Shown in pieces: positions 42,261 to 60,298 of a stretch of 64,000 bases of DNA. Both the position numbers and the translations under genes were made by a program. Under the pieces are notes generated by a model that saw nothing but the letters and a program-made list of their open reading frames with translations, made no database searches and was not told the origin of the DNA. The stretch covers positions 731,501 through 795,500 of the forward strand of contig NZ_CP086106.1 in the NCBI RefSeq assembly GCF_016765655.2. Direction: 5' to 3'. The DNA is from Skermanella mucosa (lineage in GTDB: Bacteria > Pseudomonadota > Alphaproteobacteria > Azospirillales > Azospirillaceae). Numbering within the stretch: the stretch's first letter is position 1; every line of letters starts with the position of its first letter.

Positions 42261-42522
42261 GGCGTTGTGCTGACTGAAGCGAGACAAGTGTGCAGAACCT
42301 TCGAATCCAGCGCCGCGCGCGGTTAACACCTTCGAGGGCAGCACCGGTTGTTCCCCCTGGCTTGCCCCCGCAATGATTTTATGCACAGAAAAATTTGAGT
42401 CTCCAGTGTAATTTTTTGTTCACCCTACTCTGTCCGCTGGTTCTTTTCTTCTTTGGACAGACCGGTCCATACGATTTCAGCCGAATTCCGCGAAAAATCG
42501 ACGGTTCGGGTTGATCTTGACC

Positions 42523-42535
42523 TTTACGTAAACGG
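42523..42535 (+). promoter_or_regulatory. MerR-type operator TTTACGTAAACGG in the acyl-CoA ligase promoter
   Basis: The 13-mer TTTACGTAAACGG has a perfect TTTACGTAAA palindrome core. It starts right after TTGACC (42517-42522), a good -35 element, so it lies in the spacer, the usual place for MerR-family sites. The identical 13-mer is upstream of the MerR gene at 51712. The 409-base gap 42261-42669 otherwise holds only the divergent cold-shock and ligase leaders. Confidence 0.7.
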
Positions 42536-42669
42536 CAATTAGCCTGAAACCACCTGGACCGGCCCGGAAAGCGGAAAGCCCGCTCCCGGGCCGGGGACGG
42601 CAAGCGGCGGCGACCCGGAGGGCGCGTTATAAGGCCGCGGCGACGATGGGCAGCAGGGAGACAGATGGA

Positions 42670-44385
42670 ATGGCCGATCCGGCAGCGAAGCTCGCAGAGC
42701 ACCCGTGGGCGCGTTCGTACCCCGCGGACATCGACTGGAACGCCGAGATCCCGACGGCGCCGCTCCACCGCCTCATGGACGATGCGGTCGCCCGATTCGG
42801 CGACCGGCCGTGCATCGACTTCATGGACAAGCGCTACACCTACGCACAGGTCGGCGCCCTGGTCGACAAGGCGGCGAAGGGCTTCCAGGACATGGGCGTG
42901 GGGAAGGGCAGCAAGGTCGGGCTGTTCCTGCCCAACACGCCTTACTTCGTGATCTGCTACTACGCGGTGCTGAAGGCCGGCGGCACGGTGGTCAACTTCA
43001 ACCCGCTCTACGCCGAGCGGGAGATCGCCAAGCAGATCGAGGACAGCGACACCGACATCATGGTCACGCTCGACCTGGCGGTGCTCTACGGCAAGATCGC
43101 CAAGATGCTCGGGCAGACCCGGCTGAAGCGGGTCGTCGTCGCCCGCATGGCCGACATCCTGCCCTTCCCGAAGAACTGGCTGTTTCCGATCGTCAAGCGC
43201 AAGGACGTCGCGCGCATCCCGTCCGACGACCGGCACCTCGCCTTCGCCAGGCTGATCGCCAATGCCGGCCGGCCCGCCCCGGTGGAGATCGACCCGGCGG
43301 AGGACGTGGCCGTGCTCCAGTACACCGGCGGGACCACCGGCGTGCCCAAGGGCGCCATGCTGACCCACGCCAACATCTACGCCAACGCCATCCAGTCGCG
43401 CCTGTGGTGCACCGACGCCAAGCCGGGGCAGGAGCGCATGCTGGGCGTGCTGCCGCTGTTCCACGTCTTCGCCATGACCGGCGTGATGAACCTGCCGCTG
43501 GTGCTCGGCGCCGAGATGGTGCTGGTTCCCCGGTTCGAGCTGGACACCGTGATCCGGCTGATCCAGTCCAAGAAGCCGACGCTGTTCCCCGCGGTGCCGA
43601 CCATCTACACCGCGATCGTCAACCACAAGGACATCGGCTCCTACGACCTGTCGTCGATCCGCTTCTGCCTGTCGGGCGGGGCGCCCCTGCCGGTGGAGGT
43701 CAAGCACGCGTTCGAGACCAAGACCGGCTGCAAGCTGGTCGAGGGCTACGGCCTGTCGGAAAGCTCCCCGGTCGCCACGGCCAACCCGATGTACGGGGTC
43801 AACAAGGCCGGCTCGATCGGCATCCCGCTGCCCGGCACCGTGATCGAGATCGTCAGCCTGGACGACCGCTCCCGCCTGGTTCCCCTGGGCGAGAAGGGCG
43901 AGGTCTGCATCCGCGGCCCGCAGGTGATGAAGGGATACTGGAAGCGCCCGGCCGAGACCGCGGACGCGCTGGCCGACGGCCGCCTGCATACCGGCGACGT
44001 CGGGTACCTGGACGAGGACGGCTACACCTTCATCGTCGACCGGATCAAGGACATGATCCTGTGCGGCGGCTACAACGTCTATCCGCGCAACGTGGAGGAG
44101 GCGATCTACCTGCATCCCGCCGTCGCGGAATGCGTGGTCGCCGGCGTGCCGGACCCCTACCGGGGCCAGACCGTCAAGGCCTATGTCAAGCTGACCGAGG
44201 GCCACGGGCTGACGCGCGAGGACCTGACGGAGTTCCTGCGCGACAAACTGTCGCCCATCGAGATCCCCAAGCACCTGGAGATCCGCGACGAGCTGCCGAA
44301 GACCATGATCGGCAAGCTGTCCCGCAAGGCGCTGCTGGAGGAGGAGGAAGCCCGCCGTTCCAGCCGTCAGGTCCCGGAGGGCTGA
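42670..44385 (+). CDS. fadD: Long-chain fatty acid--CoA ligase (AMP-binding)
   Basis: This 571-residue enzyme activates fatty acids to acyl-CoA with ATP. The AMP-binding P-loop is YTGGTTGVPKGAMLTH. The A5 motif is EGYGLSESSPV, then HTGDVGYLDEDGYTFIVDRIKDMI follows in the hinge region, split as two adjacent motifs, and the catalytic lysine is in PKTMIGKLSRKAL. Length and motifs match FadD-type ligases. ATG 42670 was taken because AGGGAGA lies about 10 bases before it; 42646 is possible. The operator upstream connects it to the beta-oxidation operon at 45296-51663. Confidence 0.92.
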   Translation: MADPAAKLAEHPWARSYPADIDWNAEIPTAPLHRLMDDAVARFGDRPCIDFMDKRYTYAQVGALVDKAAKGFQDMGVGKGSKVGLFLPNTPYFVICYYAVLKAGGTVVNFNPLYAEREIAKQIEDSDTDIMVTLDLAVLYGKIAKMLGQTRLKRVVVARMADILPFPKNWLFPIVKRKDVARIPSDDRHLAFARLIANAGRPAPVEIDPAEDVAVLQYTGGTTGVPKGAMLTHANIYANAIQSRLWCTDAKPGQERMLGVLPLFHVFAMTGVMNLPLVLGAEMVLVPRFELDTVIRLIQSKKPTLFPAVPTIYTAIVNHKDIGSYDLSSIRFCLSGGAPLPVEVKHAFETKTGCKLVEGYGLSESSPVATANPMYGVNKAGSIGIPLPGTVIEIVSLDDRSRLVPLGEKGEVCIRGPQVMKGYWKRPAETADALADGRLHTGDVGYLDEDGYTFIVDRIKDMILCGGYNVYPRNVEEAIYLHPAVAECVVAGVPDPYRGQTVKAYVKLTEGHGLTREDLTEFLRDKLSPIEIPKHLEIRDELPKTMIGKLSRKALLEEEEARRSSRQVPEG

Positions 44386-44416
44386 CGGCAGGACCGGAGA
44401 GGGGCGGGGGCGTCGG

Positions 44417-45070
44417 TCAGCGCATCGCGTAGCGGGATGCGCTGATCACCGCCTGGGTGCGGTTCTTGACGCCGAGCGACTTGAAGATCGCGGTCACGTG
44501 GATCTTCACCGTGCCCTCGGACAGGCCCAGCTCGTAGGCGATCTGCTTGTTGGACTTGCCCTCGCGCAGGCAGCCCAGCACGTCGCGCTGGCGCTGGGTC
44601 AGGCTGACGCCGGGGGCCGGCTCGGCCACGACGGCGTGGTCGCGCGGCACGCTGGTCAGGCCGCTGGTCCCGGACGCGTTCATCAGGGCGTGCGGCACGT
44701 AGACGCCGCCGGCCAGCACCAGCTGCAGCGCGCTGACCATGATCTGGACGCTCGACGACTTGGGGATGAAACCGCCGGCGCCGTGCTCGATCGCCTGCCG
44801 GGCGTCGGCGCCGCTCTCGGACGCGGACACCACCACCAGGGCGGTCTTGGGCAGCAGCGCCTTGATCTGGCGGATGCCGTCGAAACCGGGCCAGCCCGGC
44901 ATCTGGAGGTCGGTCAGGATCAGGTCGGGCGGCTCGCTTCCCGAGCATTGCGCCATGACGTCCTGGTAGGTCGCCGCCTGGATATAGTCTGCGTCCGAAA
45001 AAATCTGCTCCAGCAGACGATTCAGTCCTTCGCGGAACAGCGCGTGGTCGTCCCCGATCAAAATACGCAT
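44417..45070 (-). CDS. NarL/FixJ-type response regulator (REC plus LuxR HTH)
   Basis: This 217-residue regulator has a receiver domain with the acidic pair GDD at residues 6-8, phosphoacceptor Asp54 in LILTDLQMPG, and Lys in FIPKSSS. The C-terminal LuxR helix-turn-helix is LTQRQRDVLGCLREGKSNKQIAYEL followed by LSEGTVKIHVTAIFK, split here at the turn. No kinase is adjacent. The 225 bases upstream are AT-rich and include a possible small ORF. Confidence 0.92.
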   Translation of the reverse strand: MRILIGDDHALFREGLNRLLEQIFSDADYIQAATYQDVMAQCSGSEPPDLILTDLQMPGWPGFDGIRQIKALLPKTALVVVSASESGADARQAIEHGAGGFIPKSSSVQIMVSALQLVLAGGVYVPHALMNASGTSGLTSVPRDHAVVAEPAPGVSLTQRQRDVLGCLREGKSNKQIAYELGLSEGTVKIHVTAIFKSLGVKNRTQAVISASRYAMR

Positions 45071-45207
45071 CTCTTTGCCCCTTTCCCGTTTTGGCCCACT
45101 ATCGCATACGCAATTATGAGGTATCCACGTTCGGAAGCATACTATTTTGTTCGTTAATAAACTCTGCCAATCCTACTTGTGCAATTTTATCATAGGAGGG
45201 TTGGTTA

Positions 45208-45282
45208 ATGTGGCAGTTAAATCACAGATTAATGCAGCCAAAGGAATATGCCTGTAGTCGGGAGGATATCGGATGGGGCTGA
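45208..45282 (+). CDS. Possible 24-codon small ORF with strong ribosome site
   Basis: An AGGAGGG site at 45194-45200 lies 7 bases before ATG 45208, which opens a 24-codon frame (starting MWQLNHRLMQ) ending at TGA 45280. It is divergent from the NarL-type regulator and sits in an AT-rich gap. It might be a small protein, a leader peptide or chance. There is no family evidence. Confidence 0.2.
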   Translation: MWQLNHRLMQPKEYACSREDIGWG

Positions 45283-45295
45283 TTTTATCTTATGA

Positions 45296-45811
45296 TCATA
45301 TCTCTTCGGTCATAGGGGCGGGCAGGGGGAACGGCCGGGTCATAGGCGGAGATTCGACGTCCCGGCCCAGGAGTCGCAGTATTTCGGCCGGTTCGACCGT
45401 TCCTGCGCGGGATTTGAACAGCCCGCGCACCGTCGCGTGCGCCGCGACTCGGCCGTCCATCGACTCGATGCGGTGTTCCATGTAGACCCACTTCGCATCC
45501 CAGCCCAGCACGCGGGTGTGCAGCCTGAACCGCTCGAACGGCTTCAGCGACCGCCGGAACCGGACGCTGGCCCCGCCCAGCACCGGCATCCAGCGGTTCC
45601 TGATGATCGGCCGCGCCAGCCCGCAGCGGATCATCAGGTCCATCCGGCCGAGATCCATGATGGTCAGGTACCGGCCGTTGTTCATGTGCAGGTTGACGTC
45701 CAGGTCGTTCGGCCACACCCGGAACGTCAGGACCGACTCGTCCATCAGGTCCCGCCGCCGCCCGAACAGGGCGGCCAGCAGGACCTTGATCATGCGGAAG
45801 ACCAGGTTCAT
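45296..45811 (-). CDS. Hotdog-fold acyl-CoA thioesterase (THEM6/4HBT-like)
   Basis: This 171-residue protein has a membrane-like N-terminus (MNLVFRMIKVLLAALFG) and a hotdog domain. The hallmark WPNDLDVNLHMNNGRYLTIMDLGR has the catalytic Asp and the Asn-rich loop. It should hydrolyse acyl-CoA. It is the last gene of the acyl-CoA degradation operon, starting 13 bases after the dehydrogenase stop. Confidence 0.87.
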   Translation of the reverse strand: MNLVFRMIKVLLAALFGRRRDLMDESVLTFRVWPNDLDVNLHMNNGRYLTIMDLGRMDLMIRCGLARPIIRNRWMPVLGGASVRFRRSLKPFERFRLHTRVLGWDAKWVYMEHRIESMDGRVAAHATVRGLFKSRAGTVEPAEILRLLGRDVESPPMTRPFPLPAPMTEEI

Positions 45812-45824
45812 CTCGGCGCCGCCC

Positions 45825-47621
45825 TCAGAAAGCGTCGGCGTCCATGTCCATCAGCACCTGGGAGCCGGCCATGATGGTCAGGAACAGGCCGTTGACCTGG
45901 GGCAGCAGCTTGGTCATGTAGAACCGCCCGGTCTTGACCTTGCTGTCGTAGAACCCGGCGCGGCCGTCCGCCTCGGGCAGCTTCTCCTTCGCCGCCTTGA
46001 CCATGCGAAGCCACATGTAGCCCAGCGCCACCAGCGCGAACATCCGCAGATAATCGGTGGAGGCGGCCCCCGCCTCGTCCGCGTTCTTCATGCCCCTCTG
46101 GGCGACCAGCGCGGTCGCCTGCTGGAGCTTGCCGAACGCCTTGGCCAGCGGGATCACGAATTCCAGCAGTTCCGGATCCTCCTGGGTCTCCTCCAGGAAT
46201 TCCGAGACGGGGTGGAAGAACCGGCGCAGCAGCCGTCCCATGTCCTGGGGCAGCTTGCGCCCGACCAGGTCCAGCGCCTGGATCGCGTTGGTTCCCTCGT
46301 AGATCTGGGCGATCCGGGCGTCGCGCACGAACTGCTCCATCCCGTATTCCCGGATATAGCCGTGCCCGCCGTACAGCTGCATGCCCATGTTGGTCGCGTC
46401 GAACCCGTGGTCGGTGAAGAACGCCTTCACCACCGGGGTCATCAGCGCCACCAGGTCGTCGGCCTCGCGCCGAACCTCCGGGTCGGGATGCTTGATGGAC
46501 ACGTCGATGTTCATGCCGACCCAGGCGGCCAGCGCCCTGCACCCCTCGGTGTGGGCCCGCATGGTCAGCAGGGTCTTGCGCACGTCGGGATGGACGATGA
46601 TCGGGTCCGCCGGCTTGTCCGGCGCCTTGGCCCCCGTCAGCGACCGCCCCTGGAGCCGCTCGCGGGCATAGGTCACGGCGTTCTGGTAGCTGACCTCGGC
46701 GAGGCCCAGCCCCTGGATGCCGACGCCCAGCCGGGCCGCGTTCATCATGGTGAACATGGCGCGCATGCCCTTGTGCGGCTGCCCGACCAGCCAGCCCTTG
46801 GCGCCCTCGAAGTTCATCACGCAAGTCGAGGACGCCTTGATGCCCATCTTGTGCTCGATCGAGCCGCACATCACGCCGTTCCGCATGCCCGGCGTGCCGT
46901 CCTCGCGCGGCAGGAACTTGGGCACCAGGAACAGGCTGATGCCCCGCGTCCCGGCCGGCGCGTCCGGCAGCTTCGCCAGCACCAGGTGCAGGATGTTCTC
47001 GGTCAGGTCATGCTCCCCGGCCGAGATGAAGATCTTGGTGCCGGTGATCGAATAGCTGCCGTCGCCCGACCCGTCGGGCACCGCGCGGGTGCGGATCATG
47101 CCCAGGTCGGTGCCGCAGTGGGGCTCGGTCAGGCACATGGTGCCCGACCAGGTGCCGTCCACCAGCTTCGGCAGGTAGGCCCGCTTCAGCTCGTCCGTCC
47201 CGTGAAGCGACAGCGCGTTGTAGGCGCCGTGGCTGAGGCCGGGATACATGCCGAACGACAGGTTGGCCGAGCAGATGAACTCCTCCAGGATGAAGTTCAC
47301 CACATGCGGCAGCCCCTGGCCGCCATAGTCCGGATCGCAGGAAACCCCCGTCCAGCCGCCCTCGATGAACCGCGCATAGGCTTCCTTGAAGCCCGTGGGC
47401 GTCCGCACCACGCCGTTCTCGTAGTGGCAGCCCTCCTCGTCGCCGGAGCGGTTGAGCGGCTGGAGCTCGTTCTCGGCGAACTTCGCCCCTTCCTCCAGCA
47501 CCGCCTCGATCAGGTCGGGCGTATGGTCCTCATGGCCCGGCAGCTCGGCGAGCCTGCCGACCGCGAAGACTTCGTTGAGCACGAAACGGACATCGTCCAG
47601 AGGCGCCTTGTAGGTCGGCAT
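45825..47621 (-). CDS. Acyl-CoA dehydrogenase, 600-residue DmdC/FadE-like type
   Basis: This 598-residue flavoprotein introduces the first double bond in acyl-CoA oxidation. The N-terminal extension YKAPLDDVRFVLNEVF is typical of the large subclass that includes 3-methylmercaptopropionyl-CoA dehydrogenases. Flavin and substrate motifs include CLTEPHCGTDLG, QLYGGHGYIREYGMEQ and RIAQIYEGTNAIQALDL, the last carrying the catalytic glutamate. The substrate cannot be fixed, but operon neighbours suggest straight-chain fatty acids. Confidence 0.91.
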   Translation of the reverse strand: MPTYKAPLDDVRFVLNEVFAVGRLAELPGHEDHTPDLIEAVLEEGAKFAENELQPLNRSGDEEGCHYENGVVRTPTGFKEAYARFIEGGWTGVSCDPDYGGQGLPHVVNFILEEFICSANLSFGMYPGLSHGAYNALSLHGTDELKRAYLPKLVDGTWSGTMCLTEPHCGTDLGMIRTRAVPDGSGDGSYSITGTKIFISAGEHDLTENILHLVLAKLPDAPAGTRGISLFLVPKFLPREDGTPGMRNGVMCGSIEHKMGIKASSTCVMNFEGAKGWLVGQPHKGMRAMFTMMNAARLGVGIQGLGLAEVSYQNAVTYARERLQGRSLTGAKAPDKPADPIIVHPDVRKTLLTMRAHTEGCRALAAWVGMNIDVSIKHPDPEVRREADDLVALMTPVVKAFFTDHGFDATNMGMQLYGGHGYIREYGMEQFVRDARIAQIYEGTNAIQALDLVGRKLPQDMGRLLRRFFHPVSEFLEETQEDPELLEFVIPLAKAFGKLQQATALVAQRGMKNADEAGAASTDYLRMFALVALGYMWLRMVKAAKEKLPEADGRAGFYDSKVKTGRFYMTKLLPQVNGLFLTIMAGSQVLMDMDADAF

Positions 47622-47668
47622 GGTTCAAGTCCCTTGGTATCTCGATGGTGGTCTGACCCCGGTTTCCC

Positions 47669-50014
47669 TCAGTTGCGCAGCGGCTTGCCGGTGGTCAGCA
47701 TGTGTTCGATCCGGGCGACCGTGGCGCGGCTCCGGACCAGCTTCATGAAGCTCTCGCGCTCCAGCTCCAGCAGCCGGTCCTCGTCCACCTCCTCCGTGAT
47801 GTCGGTGTCGCCGCCGCTCAGCACCTCGGCCAGCGCGCCCGACACGACGACATCGTGGTCCGTCGCCTTGCCCTGCTGGTGGAACCCGTCCACCGCCATC
47901 CGCAACGCAGCCCGCGCAGTCGGCCCCGGCAGCCGCAGCGTCACCGGCTCCGGCGGGGCGTAGTTCTCCGCCAGTTCCAGCGCCTTCGCCTTGGCGTCGG
48001 CCAGCAGCCGGTCGCGGTTCATGGTGATGCCGTCGGTCGGGCGCAGGAACATCAGGTCGCGCGCCTCGTCCGCCGACTTCGCCACCTTGGCCATGCTGAT
48101 CGTCTCGAACACCTGGGCGATCGGCGGCATCGGCCCGCCCGGCCGCTTCCTGTTCAAGGTCGCGCGGGTCAGCATCTCCTTGCAGCCGCCCCAGCCGGGG
48201 ATCACCCCGACGCCGACCTCGACCAGCCCCATGTAGGTCTCGGCATGGGCCTGCACCGCGTCGCAATGCAACAGGATCTCGCAGCCGCCGCCCAGCGCCA
48301 TGCCCGACGGCGCCGCGACCACGGGGAAGGGGGCGTATTTCAGCGCCTTGTAGGTCTCCTGTCCCTCCTGGACCGACTGCTCCACCTGCGGCCACAGGGC
48401 GATGTTGACCGCGAACAGCGCCAGCCCGAGATTGACGCCGACCGAGAAATTGTCGCCCTCGTTATGGACGACCAGCGCCTTCCACTCGCCCGTGCCGTCG
48501 CCGATCATGCCGATCGCCTTCTGGATCAGCGCCATCACGTCGCCGTCCAGCGCGTTCATCTTGCCGGTGAACTCCAGGCACGCGACCCCGTCGCCGATGT
48601 CCCACAGCGCGGCCGAACCGTTCCGCTTGATCGGCTTCGACCCGCGCTTGATGTCGGACAGCAGCAGCACGCCCTCGGGCCGCACCACCTCGGCATAGCT
48701 CCCGTCCACCGTCAGGAACTCCAGCCTGCCGCCCTCGGTCCGGTAGAATCCCTTGCCCGCGGCCTTCTCCAGCAGCGCCGGCACCGGCTTGCCCTCGTCC
48801 CTCAGCGCCCCGGCCAGCCAGTCCGCCCCCAGCTGGTCGATCAGCTCGAACGGCCCGAACTTCCAGTTGTAGCCCAGCCGCATCGCCTGATCGACCGAGG
48901 TCACGTCGTCTGCGATCTCCGGCACCAGCGAGGCGGCATAGGCCAGCAGGTCCACCAGCACCCGGCGGGCATAGGTGCCGCCCCGGTCCGGATGCTCGAC
49001 CAGCGCCCGGAGCCCCTGCTTCGCCGCACCCACGCTCTCCAGCGAAGGTTTCTCCGACGGGCGGTACTGCCCCGTCGCCAGGTCGATCGCCTCCTTCACC
49101 CGGCCGCCGCCAGCCTTGTTCAGCCGGTAGAAGCCGCCCTTGCCCTTCCGCCCGGTATAGCCTTCGGCGATCATGCGGGTGAACAGCTCCGGCTCCCGGT
49201 GGATCGCCCGGTACGGGTCGTCCGCCGGCAGGGTGTTCAGCAGCGAGCGGCTGACATAGGGCATCAGGTCCAGCCCGACGAGATCGACCAGCCCGAACAC
49301 GCCCGTCTTGGGAATGCCCATGGGCCGCCCCACGACGGCGTCGGCCTCCTCCACGGTCAGCCCCAGGTCCATCGCCTGGTTGATCGCGGCCTGGATCCAG
49401 TAAGTCCCGATCCGGTTGGCGATGAAGCCCGGCCGGTCCTTGCACCGGACCACGCCCTTGCCCAGCCGCACGTCGGCGAAGCGGCTCAGGGCCTCGACCG
49501 CCTCGGGCCGCGTGTCCGGCCCGGCGACCAATTCCAGCAGCCGCATATAGCGCGGCGGGTTGAAGAAGTGGGTGATCATGAAGTCCCGGGCGAACCCGTC
49601 GCCCCGCCCCTCGACCAAATTCTTCAGCGGGATGGTCGAGGTGTTGGAGGAAACGATCGACCCCGGCTTCCGCACCGCGTCCAGCCGGGCATAGAGGTCC
49701 GCCTTGACCGCCGGGTTCTCGACCACGGCCTCGACGATCCAGTCCACCCCGGCCAGCTTCTCCAGGTCGTCCTCGATGTTGCCGGGCGTCACCAGCCGAG
49801 CGTTGCGCTTGTGCATGAAGGGCGCCGGCTCGGTCTTCAGCATCCTGTCGATCGCGGTGCGGGCGACCACACTGCGATCATTACCCCGCCCGTCCTTGAC
49901 CTCCTGCGGCACGATGTCGAGCAGGAAGACCGGAATGCCGGCATTGGCGATGTGCGCGGCGATGCCGCTGCCCATCACGCCGGCGCCGATCACGGCGGCG
50001 CTGCGGATTTCCAT
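47669..50014 (-). CDS. fadB: 3-hydroxyacyl-CoA dehydrogenase/enoyl-CoA hydratase fusion (FadB-like)
   Basis: This 781-residue enzyme performs two steps of beta-oxidation. The N-terminal NAD domain has AAVIGAGVMGSGIAAHIANAG and the catalytic His in MITHFFNPP. The C-terminal hydratase domain keeps both catalytic glutamates (ALGGGCEILL and LVEVGVGVIPGWGG). The domain order is dehydrogenase first, the reverse of E. coli FadB. ATG 50014 follows a GGAGGAG ribosome site, whereas the longer frame overlaps the thiolase gene. Confidence 0.93.
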   Translation of the reverse strand: MEIRSAAVIGAGVMGSGIAAHIANAGIPVFLLDIVPQEVKDGRGNDRSVVARTAIDRMLKTEPAPFMHKRNARLVTPGNIEDDLEKLAGVDWIVEAVVENPAVKADLYARLDAVRKPGSIVSSNTSTIPLKNLVEGRGDGFARDFMITHFFNPPRYMRLLELVAGPDTRPEAVEALSRFADVRLGKGVVRCKDRPGFIANRIGTYWIQAAINQAMDLGLTVEEADAVVGRPMGIPKTGVFGLVDLVGLDLMPYVSRSLLNTLPADDPYRAIHREPELFTRMIAEGYTGRKGKGGFYRLNKAGGGRVKEAIDLATGQYRPSEKPSLESVGAAKQGLRALVEHPDRGGTYARRVLVDLLAYAASLVPEIADDVTSVDQAMRLGYNWKFGPFELIDQLGADWLAGALRDEGKPVPALLEKAAGKGFYRTEGGRLEFLTVDGSYAEVVRPEGVLLLSDIKRGSKPIKRNGSAALWDIGDGVACLEFTGKMNALDGDVMALIQKAIGMIGDGTGEWKALVVHNEGDNFSVGVNLGLALFAVNIALWPQVEQSVQEGQETYKALKYAPFPVVAAPSGMALGGGCEILLHCDAVQAHAETYMGLVEVGVGVIPGWGGCKEMLTRATLNRKRPGGPMPPIAQVFETISMAKVAKSADEARDLMFLRPTDGITMNRDRLLADAKAKALELAENYAPPEPVTLRLPGPTARAALRMAVDGFHQQGKATDHDVVVSGALAEVLSGGDTDITEEVDEDRLLELERESFMKLVRSRATVARIEHMLTTGKPLRN

Positions 50015-50043
50015 GGGGGCTCTCCTCCGTTTCCGCTCTTGGC

Positions 50044-51180
50044 TCAGACCGCTTCCAGGACGGTGGCGATGCCCTGACCGCCGCCGATGCACTGGGTGGA
50101 CAGCGCGAACTGCCCGCCCTCGCGCTTCAGAAGCTGCGCCGCCTTGCCGGTGATGCGGGCACCCGTGGCGCCCAGCGGATGGCCCAGCGCCAGCGCGCCG
50201 CCGTCCAGGTTCACCTTGGCCCCGTCGAAGCCCAGCGCCTGCGCCACCGACAGGGCCTGCACCGCGAAGGCCTCGTTGCTCTCCACGATGTCCAGGTCCT
50301 TCACGGTGATGCCGGCCCGCTTCAGCGCCTTCTCGGTGGACGGCACCGGGCCGTAGCCCATGATGGTCGGGTCGCAGCCGGACACGGCGATCGACCTGAT
50401 CCGGGCCAGCACCGGCAGCCCGTGGGCGCGGGCGAACTCCTCCGACGTGACCAGCGTTGCCGACGATCCGTCGGTCAGCGGGCTCGCGGTGCCCGCCGTG
50501 ACCGTCCCCTCCGCCAGGAAGGCGGCCTTCAGCGACTTCAGGCTCTCGGCGCTGGTGTCGGCGCGGATGCAGCCGTCCTTGTCCACGATGCCGTCGGGCG
50601 TCTCGATCGCCACGATCTCGTCGTCGAACCGGCCGGACTCCTGCGCCGCCGCCGCCTTGCGGTGGCTCTCCACGGCGAAGGCCTCCTGGGCCTCGCGGGT
50701 GAACTGGAACTTCATCGCCAGGTTCTCGGCGGTGATGCCCATGGGCATGTAGGCGCCGGGGTTGCTCTCGGCCAGCTTCGGGTTGGGCATCGGGTTGAAG
50801 CCCAGCATGGGCACCCGGCTCATGCTCTCGATTCCGCCGGCGATGAAGGCGTGCCCGGCATCCATCTGGATGGCGCCCGCCGCCATGTGGATCGCCTGCA
50901 TGGACGAGCCGCAGAAGCGGTTGATCGTGGTCCCCGCGACGCTCTGGGGCAGCTCCGACAGCATGCCGACCAGCTTGGCGATATTGAAGCCCTGCTCGCC
51001 CTCCGGGAAGGCGCAGCCCAGGATGATGTCCTCGATCTCGTTCGGATCGACGCCGGTTCTCTTCAGCAGGCCGTTGACCACCTGGGACGCCAGATCGTCC
51101 GGCCGGATGCGGGCCAGCTTGCCCTTGCTGGCGAAGTGGAACGGCGACCGGACGTACCCGGCAATGACCACGTTCTTCAT
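50044..51180 (-). CDS. fadA: Acetyl-CoA C-acyltransferase (thiolase, FadA-like)
   Basis: This 378-residue thiolase cleaves 3-ketoacyl-CoA to release acetyl-CoA. The acyl-accepting cysteine is Cys90 (TINRFCGSSMQ). The catalytic histidine and second cysteine are in GGALALGHPLGATGARI and STQCIGGGQGIA. It lies between the MerR regulator and the FadB-like gene on one strand, so the operon encodes the full beta-oxidation spiral. Confidence 0.95.
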   Translation of the reverse strand: MKNVVIAGYVRSPFHFASKGKLARIRPDDLASQVVNGLLKRTGVDPNEIEDIILGCAFPEGEQGFNIAKLVGMLSELPQSVAGTTINRFCGSSMQAIHMAAGAIQMDAGHAFIAGGIESMSRVPMLGFNPMPNPKLAESNPGAYMPMGITAENLAMKFQFTREAQEAFAVESHRKAAAAQESGRFDDEIVAIETPDGIVDKDGCIRADTSAESLKSLKAAFLAEGTVTAGTASPLTDGSSATLVTSEEFARAHGLPVLARIRSIAVSGCDPTIMGYGPVPSTEKALKRAGITVKDLDIVESNEAFAVQALSVAQALGFDGAKVNLDGGALALGHPLGATGARITGKAAQLLKREGGQFALSTQCIGGGQGIATVLEAV

Positions 51181-51222
51181 GGTGCTAGCTCCTCACCGAC
51201 TGTTCGGATTCTGGTTTGGCGT

Positions 51223-51663
51223 TTACTTCTTGGTTTTCTTGTCCGGCTCGACGCCGGCGGCATCCAGGTGGTCCAGGATCTGGCGCTCCAGCGCGCGCAG
51301 CTCGTGCAGCGTCTGCTTGACGTCCTCCAGCTGGGTCTCCAGCGACCGGATCCGCTCCCGCCCGCGGCCCAGCGCATAGCGCATCTGCTCGATCTGCCTG
51401 TCGTCCGTGTCGTACAGGTCCAGGAAGTCCTTGATCTCCGCCAGGCTGAAGCCCAGCCGCTTGCCCCGGCAGATCAGCGTCAGCCGCGCCCGGTCGCGGT
51501 GGCTGTAGATCCGGTTCAGCCCGTCCCGCGTCGGCGCCAGCAGCCCCTGGTCCTCATAGAACCGGATCGTCCGCGGCGTCACCCTGAACTCCTCCGCCAG
51601 CTCGCTGATCGAGAAGGTCCGGGCGTTGGTGGAGCCGTTGGGCGGATCGATCATGCTGAGCAT
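51223..51663 (-). CDS. MerR-family regulator of acyl-CoA/fatty acid degradation (LiuR-like)
   Basis: This 146-residue regulator has the MerR winged HTH (FSISELAEEFRVTPRTIRFYEDQGLL, shown in two parts by its FSISELAEEF and RTIRFYEDQG motifs), then a long coiled-coil and a Lys-rich tail. There is no metal-binding cysteine set. It heads the beta-oxidation operon and has a perfect palindrome (GTTTACGTAAAC) 48 bases upstream, so it probably regulates itself. LiuR-type regulators of acyl-CoA pathways bind similar boxes. The start at 51663 lacks a clear ribosome site; ATG 51654 is an alternative. Confidence 0.88.
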   Translation of the reverse strand: MLSMIDPPNGSTNARTFSISELAEEFRVTPRTIRFYEDQGLLAPTRDGLNRIYSHRDRARLTLICRGKRLGFSLAEIKDFLDLYDTDDRQIEQMRYALGRGRERIRSLETQLEDVKQTLHELRALERQILDHLDAAGVEPDKKTKK

Positions 51664-51710
51664 AGGAGGACACCGCGCAGGGAAACAGGGACCGGGAACC
51701 GGGATATGAC

Positions 51711-51724
51711 GTTTACGTAAACGG
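51711..51724 (-). promoter_or_regulatory. MerR-type operator upstream of the beta-oxidation operon
   Basis: The palindrome GTTTACGTAAAC (51711-51722) extends to the 13-mer TTTACGTAAACGG (51712-51724), identical to 42523-42535. It is the probable self-binding site of the MerR regulator. Confidence 0.75.
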
Positions 51725-51900
51725 AAGGTACGCGACCCGGCCCGCCGCGTCAAGCCCGCGATGCCGGCCGCCCAACTCGCCGCCCCCTGCGGAGGGGCGG
51801 CGTCCCGCCGCCCAAGGTGCGCGGGACGCGCACCCTCCCAAATGCCGCTTCCCTTAAGGTCCGAACGGATCGCGGCATGCCGCAACAGCCGGATCGATGC

Positions 51901-53616: not shown

Positions 53617-53898
53617 TCAGGCCCTGATCCAGAAGAAGGGTTCCTCGGCGATGAAGTCGAGGGCGTCATCAAGGGGCATGATGGCGCCGAAGGGACCGGC
53701 GGGTCCCCAGGCGTCGCGTCGCCACCAGAGGACCTCGACCTCGTCGTCCTCGCCGGTCGGGCACAGGCGGGCGACCGGCGCGCCGGTGCGGGTGCTGACC
53801 AGCGAGTAGCCGTGACCGGCGCGCCGGGCGCGGACGCCACCTTGCGGCCAGGGGTGGGCGTGGATGCGCTGGAGCACGGGGTCGGTCTTGGCGGCCAT
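53617..53898 (-). CDS. Small divergent ORF inside IS copy 1
   Basis: This 93-residue frame runs opposite to the transposase, starting 58 bases from it. It encodes a compact acidic protein with two WW/WGPAG motifs (EVLWWRRDAWGPAGPFG) and an aromatic C-terminus (EEPFFWIRA). It is kept intact in both copies. It could be a passenger or regulator of transposition. No family was recognised. Confidence 0.5.
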   Translation of the reverse strand: MAAKTDPVLQRIHAHPWPQGGVRARRAGHGYSLVSTRTGAPVARLCPTGEDDEVEVLWWRRDAWGPAGPFGAIMPLDDALDFIAEEPFFWIRA

Positions 53899-53956
53899 GG
53901 CGATCTCCGCGGGGCGGGACTGTTGGGTCCAACACTCCAACCGCCCGGAGGGGACC

Positions 53957-55321
53957 ATGGACCGCCCTGACCCGCCGCTGCCCGAGGCGTTCTGCCGCTG
54001 GCTCGCCCCGGCGCTCGCTGTGTTCTCGCCGACCTGCCGGCCCCAGGCCGCCGCGCTGGCGGTCGGCGCCCTGCTGGCGCTTGGCCCGCGCACCGTGGCC
54101 GGCGCGCTACGCGCGCTCGGCCTGGCCGGACGGGCCGATTTCGCCACCTTCCACCGGGTGCTCAGCCGCGACGTGTGGTCCGGGCTGGCGCTGGCCCGGC
54201 GGCTCACCCGGGCGCTGGTGCGCGTGTTCGCCCCGCTCGGCCCGGTGGTGGTCGGGCTCGACCACACCCTGGAGCGCCGGCGCGGTCCCCGGGTCCGGCC
54301 GGCGGCACACTACTACGACCCGGTGCGCTCCTCGCGCGGGCGCAAGGTCACCAGCCGCGGCCTGCGCTGGGTCTCGGCCATGCTGCTGGCCGAGGTGCCG
54401 TTCGCCCGCAAGGTCTGGGCGCTGCCGATGCTCAGCGCGCTGGCGCCGAGCCAAGCCTTCTGCCAGGCCGAGGGCCGGCGATACCGGCCGGTCACGGCGT
54501 GGGCGCTCAGCCTGCTGCGCCTGGTGCGGCGCTGGCTGCCGGGGCGCGCCATGGTCGCGGTGATGGACGGCGAGTTCGCCTCGGTCGGCCTGCTGCGCGA
54601 GTTGGGCCGCGCAATGACCGTGGTGACCCGGCTCCGCCTGGACGCCCGGCTGTTCGACTTCCCGGCCCCGCGCCCGCCCGGCCGGGGCGGTCGGCCCGCC
54701 ACCAAGGGCAAGGCCCAAACCAAGCTGGCCAAGCGGCGGCACGACGCGGGCGAGCCCTGGCAGCGCTTCGCCCTGCTGGTCCGCACCGGGCGTCGCCACG
54801 CGCGGGAGGCGGAGTTCATCTCCGGCACCGCGCTGTGGCACCACCCGGGGGAGCCGCCGGTCGCGGTCCGCTGGATCCTGGTGCGCTATCCCGGGTCCAA
54901 GCGCGACCCCGACGCGTTGGCGTGCACCGACTTGACGGCCGACCCGCTGGTCATCCTCGGCTGGTTCTCCAGGCGCTGGCTGATGGAACTCACCTATGAA
55001 GAGGCGCGCGCCCACCTCGGCGTCGAGACCCAGCGCCAGCACGCCGACAAGGCGGTGTTCCGCACCACCCCGGTGCTGTTCGGCCTGTACTCGCTGGTCG
55101 CGCTCCATGTCCAGGCCTTCGCCGGCCAACTCGACCTGACCCCGCGCCGGGCGGCCTGGTACCCCAAGACCGCCCCGACCTTCGCCGACGCCCTGGCTGC
55201 CGTACGCATCGCCCTGTGGACCGACCTGAATTTCGTCACAGCCCTGGATCCCGGCGAAACCGTCCAAATTCCTCGCACCGTCTACGTCAGGCTCGTCCAG
55301 GCCGCCGCTTATGCCCCCTGA
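53957..55321 (+). CDS. IS transposase, DDE superfamily (IS4/IS701-like), copy 1
   Basis: This 454-residue transposase has the expected DDE acids: first Asp in VVVGLDHTLERRRG, second Asp in VAVMDGEFASVGLL, and Glu in RRWLMELTYEEARAHLG. The N-terminus (RPDPPLPEAFCRWL) resembles IS701/IS4-type helical domains. IS701 elements usually make 4-bp duplications, while this makes 5 bp, so family assignment is tentative. ATG 53957 is preceded by GGAGGGG. Confidence 0.88.
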   Translation: MDRPDPPLPEAFCRWLAPALAVFSPTCRPQAAALAVGALLALGPRTVAGALRALGLAGRADFATFHRVLSRDVWSGLALARRLTRALVRVFAPLGPVVVGLDHTLERRRGPRVRPAAHYYDPVRSSRGRKVTSRGLRWVSAMLLAEVPFARKVWALPMLSALAPSQAFCQAEGRRYRPVTAWALSLLRLVRRWLPGRAMVAVMDGEFASVGLLRELGRAMTVVTRLRLDARLFDFPAPRPPGRGGRPATKGKAQTKLAKRRHDAGEPWQRFALLVRTGRRHAREAEFISGTALWHHPGEPPVAVRWILVRYPGSKRDPDALACTDLTADPLVILGWFSRRWLMELTYEEARAHLGVETQRQHADKAVFRTTPVLFGLYSLVALHVQAFAGQLDLTPRRAAWYPKTAPTFADALAAVRIALWTDLNFVTALDPGETVQIPRTVYVRLVQAAAYAP

Positions 55322-58786: not shown

Positions 58787-58875
58787 CCGTGACCGGCGCG
58801 CCGGGCGCGGACGCCACCTTGCGGCCAGGGGTGGGCGTGGATGCGCTGGAGCACGGGGTCGGTCTTGGCGGCCAT
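58594..58875 (-). CDS. Small divergent ORF inside IS copy 2
   Basis: This is the same 93-residue protein as at 53617-53898. Retention in both copies is expected if they are recent, so it does not by itself prove selection. Confidence 0.5.
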   Translation of the reverse strand: MAAKTDPVLQRIHAHPWPQGGVRARRAGHGYSLVSTRTGAPVARLCPTGEDDEVEVLWWRRDAWGPAGPFGAIMPLDDALDFIAEEPFFWIRA

Positions 58876-58933
58876 GGCGATCTCCGCGGGGCGGGACTGT
58901 TGGGTCCAACACTCCAACCGCCCGGAGGGGACC

Positions 58934-60298
58934 ATGGACCGCCCTGACCCGCCGCTGCCCGAGGCGTTCTGCCGCTGGCTCGCCCCGGCGCTCGCTGTGT
59001 TCTCGCCGACCTGCCGGCCCCAGGCCGCCGCGCTGGCGGTCGGCGCCCTGCTGGCGCTTGGCCCGCGCACCGTGGCCGGCGCGCTACGCGCGCTCGGCCT
59101 GGCCGGACGGGCCGATTTCGCCACCTTCCACCGGGTGCTCAGCCGCGACGTGTGGTCCGGGCTGGCGCTGGCCCGGCGGCTCACCCGGGCGCTGGTGCGC
59201 GTGTTCGCCCCGCTCGGCCCGGTGGTGGTCGGGCTCGACCACACCCTGGAGCGCCGGCGCGGTCCCCGGGTCCGGCCGGCGGCACACTACTACGACCCGG
59301 TGCGCTCCTCGCGCGGGCGCAAGGTCACCAGCCGCGGCCTGCGCTGGGTCTCGGCCATGCTGCTGGCCGAGGTGCCGTTCGCCCGCAAGGTCTGGGCGCT
59401 GCCGATGCTCAGCGCGCTGGCGCCGAGCCAAGCCTTCTGCCAGGCCGAGGGCCGGCGATACCGGCCGGTCACGGCGTGGGCGCTCAGCCTGCTGCGCCTG
59501 GTGCGGCGCTGGCTGCCGGGGCGCGCCATGGTCGCGGTGATGGACGGCGAGTTCGCCTCGGTCGGCCTGCTGCGCGAGTTGGGCCGCGCAATGACCGTGG
59601 TGACCCGGCTCCGCCTGGACGCCCGGCTGTTCGACTTCCCGGCCCCGCGCCCGCCCGGCCGGGGCGGTCGGCCCGCCACCAAGGGCAAGGCCCAAACCAA
59701 GCTGGCCAAGCGGCGGCACGACGCGGGCGAGCCCTGGCAGCGCTTCGCCCTGCTGGTCCGCACCGGGCGTCGCCACGCGCGGGAGGCGGAGTTCATCTCC
59801 GGCACCGCGCTGTGGCACCACCCGGGGGAGCCGCCGGTCGCGGTCCGCTGGATCCTGGTGCGCTATCCCGGGTCCAAGCGCGACCCCGACGCGTTGGCGT
59901 GCACCGACTTGACGGCCGACCCGCTGGTCATCCTCGGCTGGTTCTCCAGGCGCTGGCTGATGGAACTCACCTATGAAGAGGCGCGCGCCCACCTCGGCGT
60001 CGAGACCCAGCGCCAGCACGCCGACAAGGCGGTGTTCCGCACCACCCCGGTGCTGTTCGGCCTGTACTCGCTGGTCGCGCTCCATGTCCAGGCCTTCGCC
60101 GGCCAACTCGACCTGACCCCGCGCCGGGCGGCCTGGTACCCCAAGACCGCCCCGACCTTCGCCGACGCCCTGGCTGCCGTACGCATCGCCCTGTGGACCG
60201 ACCTGAATTTCGTCACAGCCCTGGATCCCGGCGAAACCGTCCAAATTCCTCGCACCGTCTACGTCAGGCTCGTCCAGGCCGCCGCTTATGCCCCCTGA
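58934..60298 (+). CDS. IS transposase, copy 2
   Basis: This is the same 454-residue DDE transposase as at 53957-55321, with no amino-acid change in the translated frame. Both copies look intact and could still be active. All three catalytic acids are present. Confidence 0.88.
   Translation: MDRPDPPLPEAFCRWLAPALAVFSPTCRPQAAALAVGALLALGPRTVAGALRALGLAGRADFATFHRVLSRDVWSGLALARRLTRALVRVFAPLGPVVVGLDHTLERRRGPRVRPAAHYYDPVRSSRGRKVTSRGLRWVSAMLLAEVPFARKVWALPMLSALAPSQAFCQAEGRRYRPVTAWALSLLRLVRRWLPGRAMVAVMDGEFASVGLLRELGRAMTVVTRLRLDARLFDFPAPRPPGRGGRPATKGKAQTKLAKRRHDAGEPWQRFALLVRTGRRHAREAEFISGTALWHHPGEPPVAVRWILVRYPGSKRDPDALACTDLTADPLVILGWFSRRWLMELTYEEARAHLGVETQRQHADKAVFRTTPVLFGLYSLVALHVQAFAGQLDLTPRRAAWYPKTAPTFADALAAVRIALWTDLNFVTALDPGETVQIPRTVYVRLVQAAAYAP

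Follow-up and report, generated by a model that had tools for sequence, protein, structure and literature searches.

The palindromic box that occurs twice in the analyzed 64-kb stretch of Skermanella mucosa DNA (the window) is very probably the operator of the MerR-type regulator encoded at positions 51223-51654. A MerR dimer would bind the pattern TTACSTTTACGTAAASGTAA and, when bound, would repress its own beta-oxidation operon, an acyl-CoA ligase gene and a FadL-type porin gene, and probably also a peptide-type ABC transporter and a DUF2889 gene; an acyl-CoA produced by the ligase would then release MerR from the operator. This model is built on the positions of the sites, their conservation, the gene context and the candidate promoter layout; from these we infer binding, repression and the acyl-CoA ligand. 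For Skermanella and related bacteria, it would provide a concrete fatty-acid regulon with candidate operators at defined promoters, and it adds the DUF2889 gene and the peptide-type transporter as candidate members.

Genes and box of the window

A first-pass annotation of this DNA had described an operon of a MerR gene with thiolase, FadB-like, acyl-CoA dehydrogenase and thioesterase genes, as well as a distant acyl-CoA ligase. The Pfam content of the operon agrees with this description (MerR HTH, thiolase, 3HCDH plus enoyl-CoA hydratase, acyl-CoA dehydrogenase plus C-terminal domain, 4HBT_2). The ligase is an AMP-binding enzyme according to Pfam, and its best NCBIfam models are long-chain-fatty-acid-CoA ligases, with scores below the curated cut-offs. 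The MerR protein contains the Pfam domains MerR_1 and MerR-DNA-bind and a single Cys at residue 62. A metal-sensing MerR protein (ZntR, CueR, MerR) was rejected, as the best model, ZntR, reached 61.7 bits against a cut-off of 143 and only one Cys is present. Elsewhere in the window, identical ORFs of 485 amino acids lie in the same orientation at 53864-55321 and 58841-60298, and the ORFs overlapping them are identical as well; from their appearance, these are two copies of one insertion element.

Table 1. Boxes and genes of the window, and loci with a different recurrent upstream stretch
Feature	Position or locus	Strand	Remark
Box 1, TTGACCTTTACGTAAACGGCAA	42517..42538	+	ligase promoter: over the -35 hexamer and most of the spacer
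FadD-like acyl-CoA ligase gene	42646..44385	+	AMP-binding, E = 1.7e-100
4HBT_2-type thioesterase gene	45296..45811	-	last gene of the presumed operon (Pfam)
Acyl-CoA dehydrogenase gene	45825..47621	-	with Acyl-CoA_dh_C domain (Pfam)
3-Hydroxyacyl-CoA dehydrogenase/enoyl-CoA hydratase fusion gene	47669..50014	-	dehydrogenase part first (Pfam and NCBIfam)
Thiolase (acetyl-CoA acyltransferase) gene	50044..51180	-	TIGR01930 above cut-off
MerR-type regulator gene	51223..51654	-	143 amino acids, LiuR-like, fatty-acid side of the tree
Box 2, core TTTACGTAAA at 51712-51721	51707..51726	-	merR promoter: overlap with the -10 candidate
GTGACGTATAGGGAA-like stretch upstream of MerR	L262, L268, L271-L273, L276, L279-L281, L283-L287, L290

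The 13-mer TTTACGTAAACGG, which had been reported to join the ligase to the MerR operon, was found exactly at 42523-42535 and 51712-51724. Allowing up to two mismatches, the window contains four matches as compared to 0.17 expected, a number that was attained in 0 of 100 shuffled windows. Since each site is palindromic, it matches on both strands, and the four matches represent two sites. A genome-wide scan, judged by the flanking letters, placed the full 13-mer at the two window sites only. However, the 13-mer is not the unit: at both sites it is embedded in a palindrome of about 20 bp with the pattern given above. Both sites share the palindromic core TTTACGTAAA, which is extended at the 51712 site to the longer palindrome CGTTTACGTAAACG.

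Promoter layout

The first site had been assigned to the spacer of a TTGACC promoter, and this hexamer (42517-42522) indeed directly precedes the box; it is followed after a 17-bp spacer by the -10 candidate TAGCCT (42540-42545). The candidate merR promoter consists of TTGACG (51748-51753), a 17-bp spacer and TACCTT (51725-51730). Promoter pairs had first been scored with a bonus of 0.5 for spacers of 16 to 18 bp and were rescored without it; all following results refer to the scoring without the bonus. Among the ligase promoters of S. mucosa and the relatives G001-G004 and G007, the 17-bp pair was best or tied in six of six cases (alone in three, tied in three), the best pairs being TTGACC-17-TAGCCT, TAGCGT or TAACCT with the -35 hexamer directly before the core. 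For merR, the 17-bp pair was best in 10 and tied in 3 of 15 promoters, together 13; these pairs read TTGACR (once TTGACT, once TTGTCA)-17-TACSTT and carry the box on the -10 hexamer. Exceptions were an 18-bp pair in G007 and the promoter of G008, which has no clear pair. The FadL promoters were less clear: the 17-bp pair was tied best in three of five, S. mucosa itself prefers an 18-bp pair elsewhere, and G003 prefers 15 bp. A 15-bp spacer was also preferred before a FadH-like gene.

Classical MerR activation by untwisting needs spacers of 19-20 bp. We consider it unlikely that the window MerR is such an activator, which would untwist the promoter between the -35 and -10 hexamers. The protein has the MerR-type fold with CueR at the top of its solved relatives (E = 2e-9), and spacers of 18 to 20 bp tie or win at the ligase promoters of G002 and G004, the FadL promoters of S. 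mucosa and G004, and the merR promoter of G007. Nevertheless, the 17-bp pairs predominate at both the ligase and the merR promoters, and the box is centered near -35 (ligase) or -10 (merR) and not in mid-spacer. Judged by these candidate promoters, the layout fits a blocked promoter, i.e. repression, better than classical activation. Since the operator sits on the -35 hexamer and spacer in the ligase promoter and on the -10 hexamer in the merR promoter, binding should block RNA polymerase.

Further sites in the S. mucosa genome

The sequence TTTACGTAAACG occurs exactly at five distinct places of the S. mucosa genome (six matches, one place being matched on both strands; 7,840,710 bases, five contigs). 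Four of these lie before the acyl-CoA ligase gene, the MerR operon, a FadL-type porin gene and a gene for a peptide-type ABC binding protein; the fifth, C2:12577, is near a transposase-like fragment recognized by eye. The exact core was present at six places of the genome as compared to two for the reversed pattern, and a 22-letter pattern with up to three mismatches was found at four places in G000 as compared to none reversed. The model R1 was built from sites that it later ranked first, and its ranking is thus partly circular.

The site at C1:995242 is located about 82 bp before the gene of an OMPP1/FadL/TodX porin (Pfam E = 5e-107), and the site at C1:5176242 about 16 bp before the gene of a family-5 solute-binding protein, next to which a permease-like gene was seen by eye on the same strand. 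An exact core shortly before the start of this peptide-type substrate-binding gene (L005/L368) was observed in four of five Skermanella genomes. The site at C1:3514928 (L089) lies within an ORF.

Furthermore, a weaker site, TTTACGTATACG, precedes a DUF2889 gene. This site is kept in G001 and G002, G003 has another variant, and G012 has the exact core. A DUF2889 gene with the box or a variant was thus seen in five genomes (L010 1501-1533, L366, L367, L143 and L100), which may be taken as a hint that the gene belongs to fatty-acid metabolism. Membership of the solute-binding protein and DUF2889 genes in the regulon does not follow from a role in beta-oxidation. Another box-like palindrome (L148/L145, near 1501) is weaker and kept in S. 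mucosa and G001, where it precedes a sensor-like gene by about 150 bp; it was excluded from the regulon because the neighboring genes could not be linked to fatty acids.

Conservation of the box

The nearest named relatives by MerR identity are Skermanella stibiiresistens (88%) and S. aerolata (78%). In five Skermanella genomes (S. mucosa and G001-G004), exact sites were found before merR, the ligase gene and the FadL gene in five of five each, and before the solute-binding protein gene in four, G003 lacking it. The joint regulon of ligase and MerR operon proposed in the first-pass annotation is thereby supported in silico, with the FadL-type porin gene as a further target.

Including S. mucosa, 27 of 39 relatives encode the MerR protein at E ≤1e-20; in 19 of these 27, the exact core lies no more than 350 bp upstream of the encoding gene. 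In G007 the ligase and MerR genes adjoin, each with its own box. Apart from the merR, ligase and genus-level FadL and solute-binding protein sites, 21 further core sites of the relatives were fetched; 2 were read by comparison and 13 by their ORFs, and L088, L106, L110, L118, L120 and L121 were left out. By comparison, cores precede a second acyl-CoA dehydrogenase gene (L091) and a FadL gene (L101), both in other genera, and the DUF2889 gene of L100. According to Pfam, core sites in other genera belong to an Oxidored_FMN/Pyr_redox_2 enzyme resembling FadH (L092) and an SCP2 gene (L097), and others to an alpha/beta hydrolase (L114) and a 4HBT thioesterase (L124). At 8 of the 13 sites read by their ORFs, no fatty-acid target was evident (L083, L089, L102, L103, L108, L111, L115 and L126).

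A sample of 241 alphaproteobacterial genomes with a completeness of at least 90 was analyzed, in which 83 genomes encode the MerR protein at E ≤1e-25. Of 109 distinct matches from this sample and the 39 relatives taken together, 107 were examined (omitted: G239:C4:938160 and G020:C1:1419247). The exact 10-bp core was located within 350 bp upstream of MerR in 41 of these 107 loci, and all 838,655 bases of these loci, the 64-kb window included, hold 46 cores. Among the 66 loci without an exact core, 38 match at least 16 of 20 letters. The same search in 80 named loci, seven of which (four with a core) duplicate records of the former set, revealed the exact core upstream of MerR in 18; these are just 18 of the 44 cores in 1,414,460 bases, and 20 of the 62 remaining loci match at least 16 of 20 letters.

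In place of the core, a different stretch near GTGACGTATAGGGAA upstream of MerR recurs in many Telmatospirillum and Siculibacillus and some Magnetospirillum loci (Table 1) and is possibly a changed operator. At most loci with this stretch, the MerR gene has a ligase gene of the same orientation a short distance upstream. Since ligase and MerR cluster in these genera, the ligase lying 9 kb off in Skermanella can be understood to carry the same box.

That the box belongs to another fatty-acid regulator, with merR being controlled from above and lacking autoregulation, appears very improbable. A palindrome can serve any dimer, and MerR as the binder is a prediction. The box, however, accompanies the MerR gene across many families and in both the fatty-acid and the leucine-degradation context. 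Moreover, in the family of the window (23 genomes), the 19 genomes with MerR hold 46 cores as compared to 18 for the reversed pattern, whereas the four without MerR at E 1e-20 hold one as compared to six. In other families, a number of small genomes that lack MerR are rich in cores (G024, 5; G028, 7; G030, 5; reversed pattern 1, 11 and 8). Chance repeats or parts of a mobile element can practically be dismissed: one of the five sites is near a transposase fragment, but the matches in the window far exceed expectation, the 22-letter pattern is absent in reversed form, the flanks of the sites are unlike each other, and the sites are kept at the same genes across five genomes.

Relationship to LiuR

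Besides one regulon, the first-pass annotation had proposed control of the LiuR type. Both are supported by the same kind of box, which precedes MerR genes in many alphaproteobacteria and, in some beta- and gammaproteobacteria, MerR genes linked to liu genes. The window MerR is not LiuR itself, as its place in the tree is on the fatty-acid side. LiuR, the regulator of leucine/isoleucine/valine degradation, has the same size and fold, and MerR proteins in liu context from beta- and gammaproteobacteria are 48-55% identical to the window MerR. Like the genes of these proteins, with which it was compared rather than with the published LiuR motif, the window merR is preceded by a palindromic box. 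LiuR is encoded next to liu/ivd genes or controls them; the neighbors of the window MerR are fatty-acid genes instead.

Loci were labeled by their neighboring genes, as fad when a thiolase (55% identity) and HAD-ECH (50%), or an acyl-CoA dehydrogenase (45%), were encoded, liu when an isovaleryl-CoA dehydrogenase (65%) was encoded, and other in the remaining cases, all thresholds being set by us. In the window, MerR lies directly before thiolase, HAD-ECH and acyl-CoA dehydrogenase, which corresponds to the fad context. Labeling of 187 loci resulted in 108 fad, 29 liu and 50 other, with 40, 13 and 6 exact cores, respectively; after removal of seven repeats, cores were present in 37 of 103, 12 of 28 and 6 of 49. 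Hence, the same kind of box is carried by MerR genes of both contexts, and the collection may be used to compare the roles of one MerR box in two acyl-CoA pathways. Among the liu loci are those of beta- and gammaproteobacteria in which methylcrotonyl-CoA carboxylase genes lie close by, and by context their MerR proteins are LiuR.

A FastTree phylogeny with a midpoint root was calculated from 186 rows, 174 of them different; the program had omitted one liu row. A single change suffices to separate the fad from the liu labels when rows labeled other are uncounted, and 15 (fad) and 7 (liu) changes are needed when these are counted. The window MerR lies opposite the liu-context proteins across the fad/liu branch, which has a support of 92, is not starred, and carries the program's warning of few columns and long branches. 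At least 90% conservation in both groups was found for 19 residues.

LiuR proper was ruled out for S. mucosa, in which the leucine-degradation cluster is boxless and faces a TetR-family gene. This cluster encodes an isovaleryl-CoA dehydrogenase (C1:3683281, 74% identity), and within 16 kb its best match to the box was 12 of 20 letters. No MerR copy of the LiuR side was found in Skermanella; the next best MerR of S. mucosa is 34% identical (E = 5e-7). The TetR gene facing the cluster (L176 7279-9287) is a candidate regulator of it.

Kazakov et al. (2009, J Bacteriol 191:52) reportedly attributed alphaproteobacterial fatty-acid degradation to orthologues of LiuR in 22 species; these share regulator family, bacterial class and pathway with the window MerR. 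That work may or may not already contain the promoter layout, the split into two clades and the regulon members FadL, peptide transporter and DUF2889; the regulon looks like a real one of an already described kind, here in Skermanella. Beyond this study, our search of the accessible literature found no paper on a fatty-acid MerR of alphaproteobacteria, and the accessible parts of PMC5343134, PMC3223726, PMC7238569, PMC3840689, PMC9023270 and PMC5045206 do not state the assignment of LiuR to fatty acids in this class. LiuR is described as a MerR-family repressor (PMC3223726), and for Rhodospirillum rubrum an ILV box before LiuR and more LiuR on butyrate are described (PMC7238569). FadR, PsrA and FadP share control of fatty-acid degradation with the window MerR and differ from it in belonging to the GntR and TetR families (PMC5343134); FadR and PsrA repress fatty-acid degradation genes (in part from PMC3223726).

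An old duplication may have given rise to two MerR repressors, the fatty-acid regulator of alphaproteobacteria then being a paralogue and not an orthologue of LiuR, an idea to which we assign somewhat less than an even chance. Three genomes (G161, G201 and G241) each encode one fad and one liu MerR copy. Upstream of their fad copies a palindrome centered on ACGTATACGT was found; upstream of the liu copy, the center was ACGTTAACGT in one of them, and no palindrome was found in the other two. It looks as if the boxes of the two copies are kept apart in these genomes. Neither G246, in which the fad copy has ACGTTAACGT, nor the ACGTATACGT variant before the DUF2889 gene in Skermanella agrees with a simple split of boxes.
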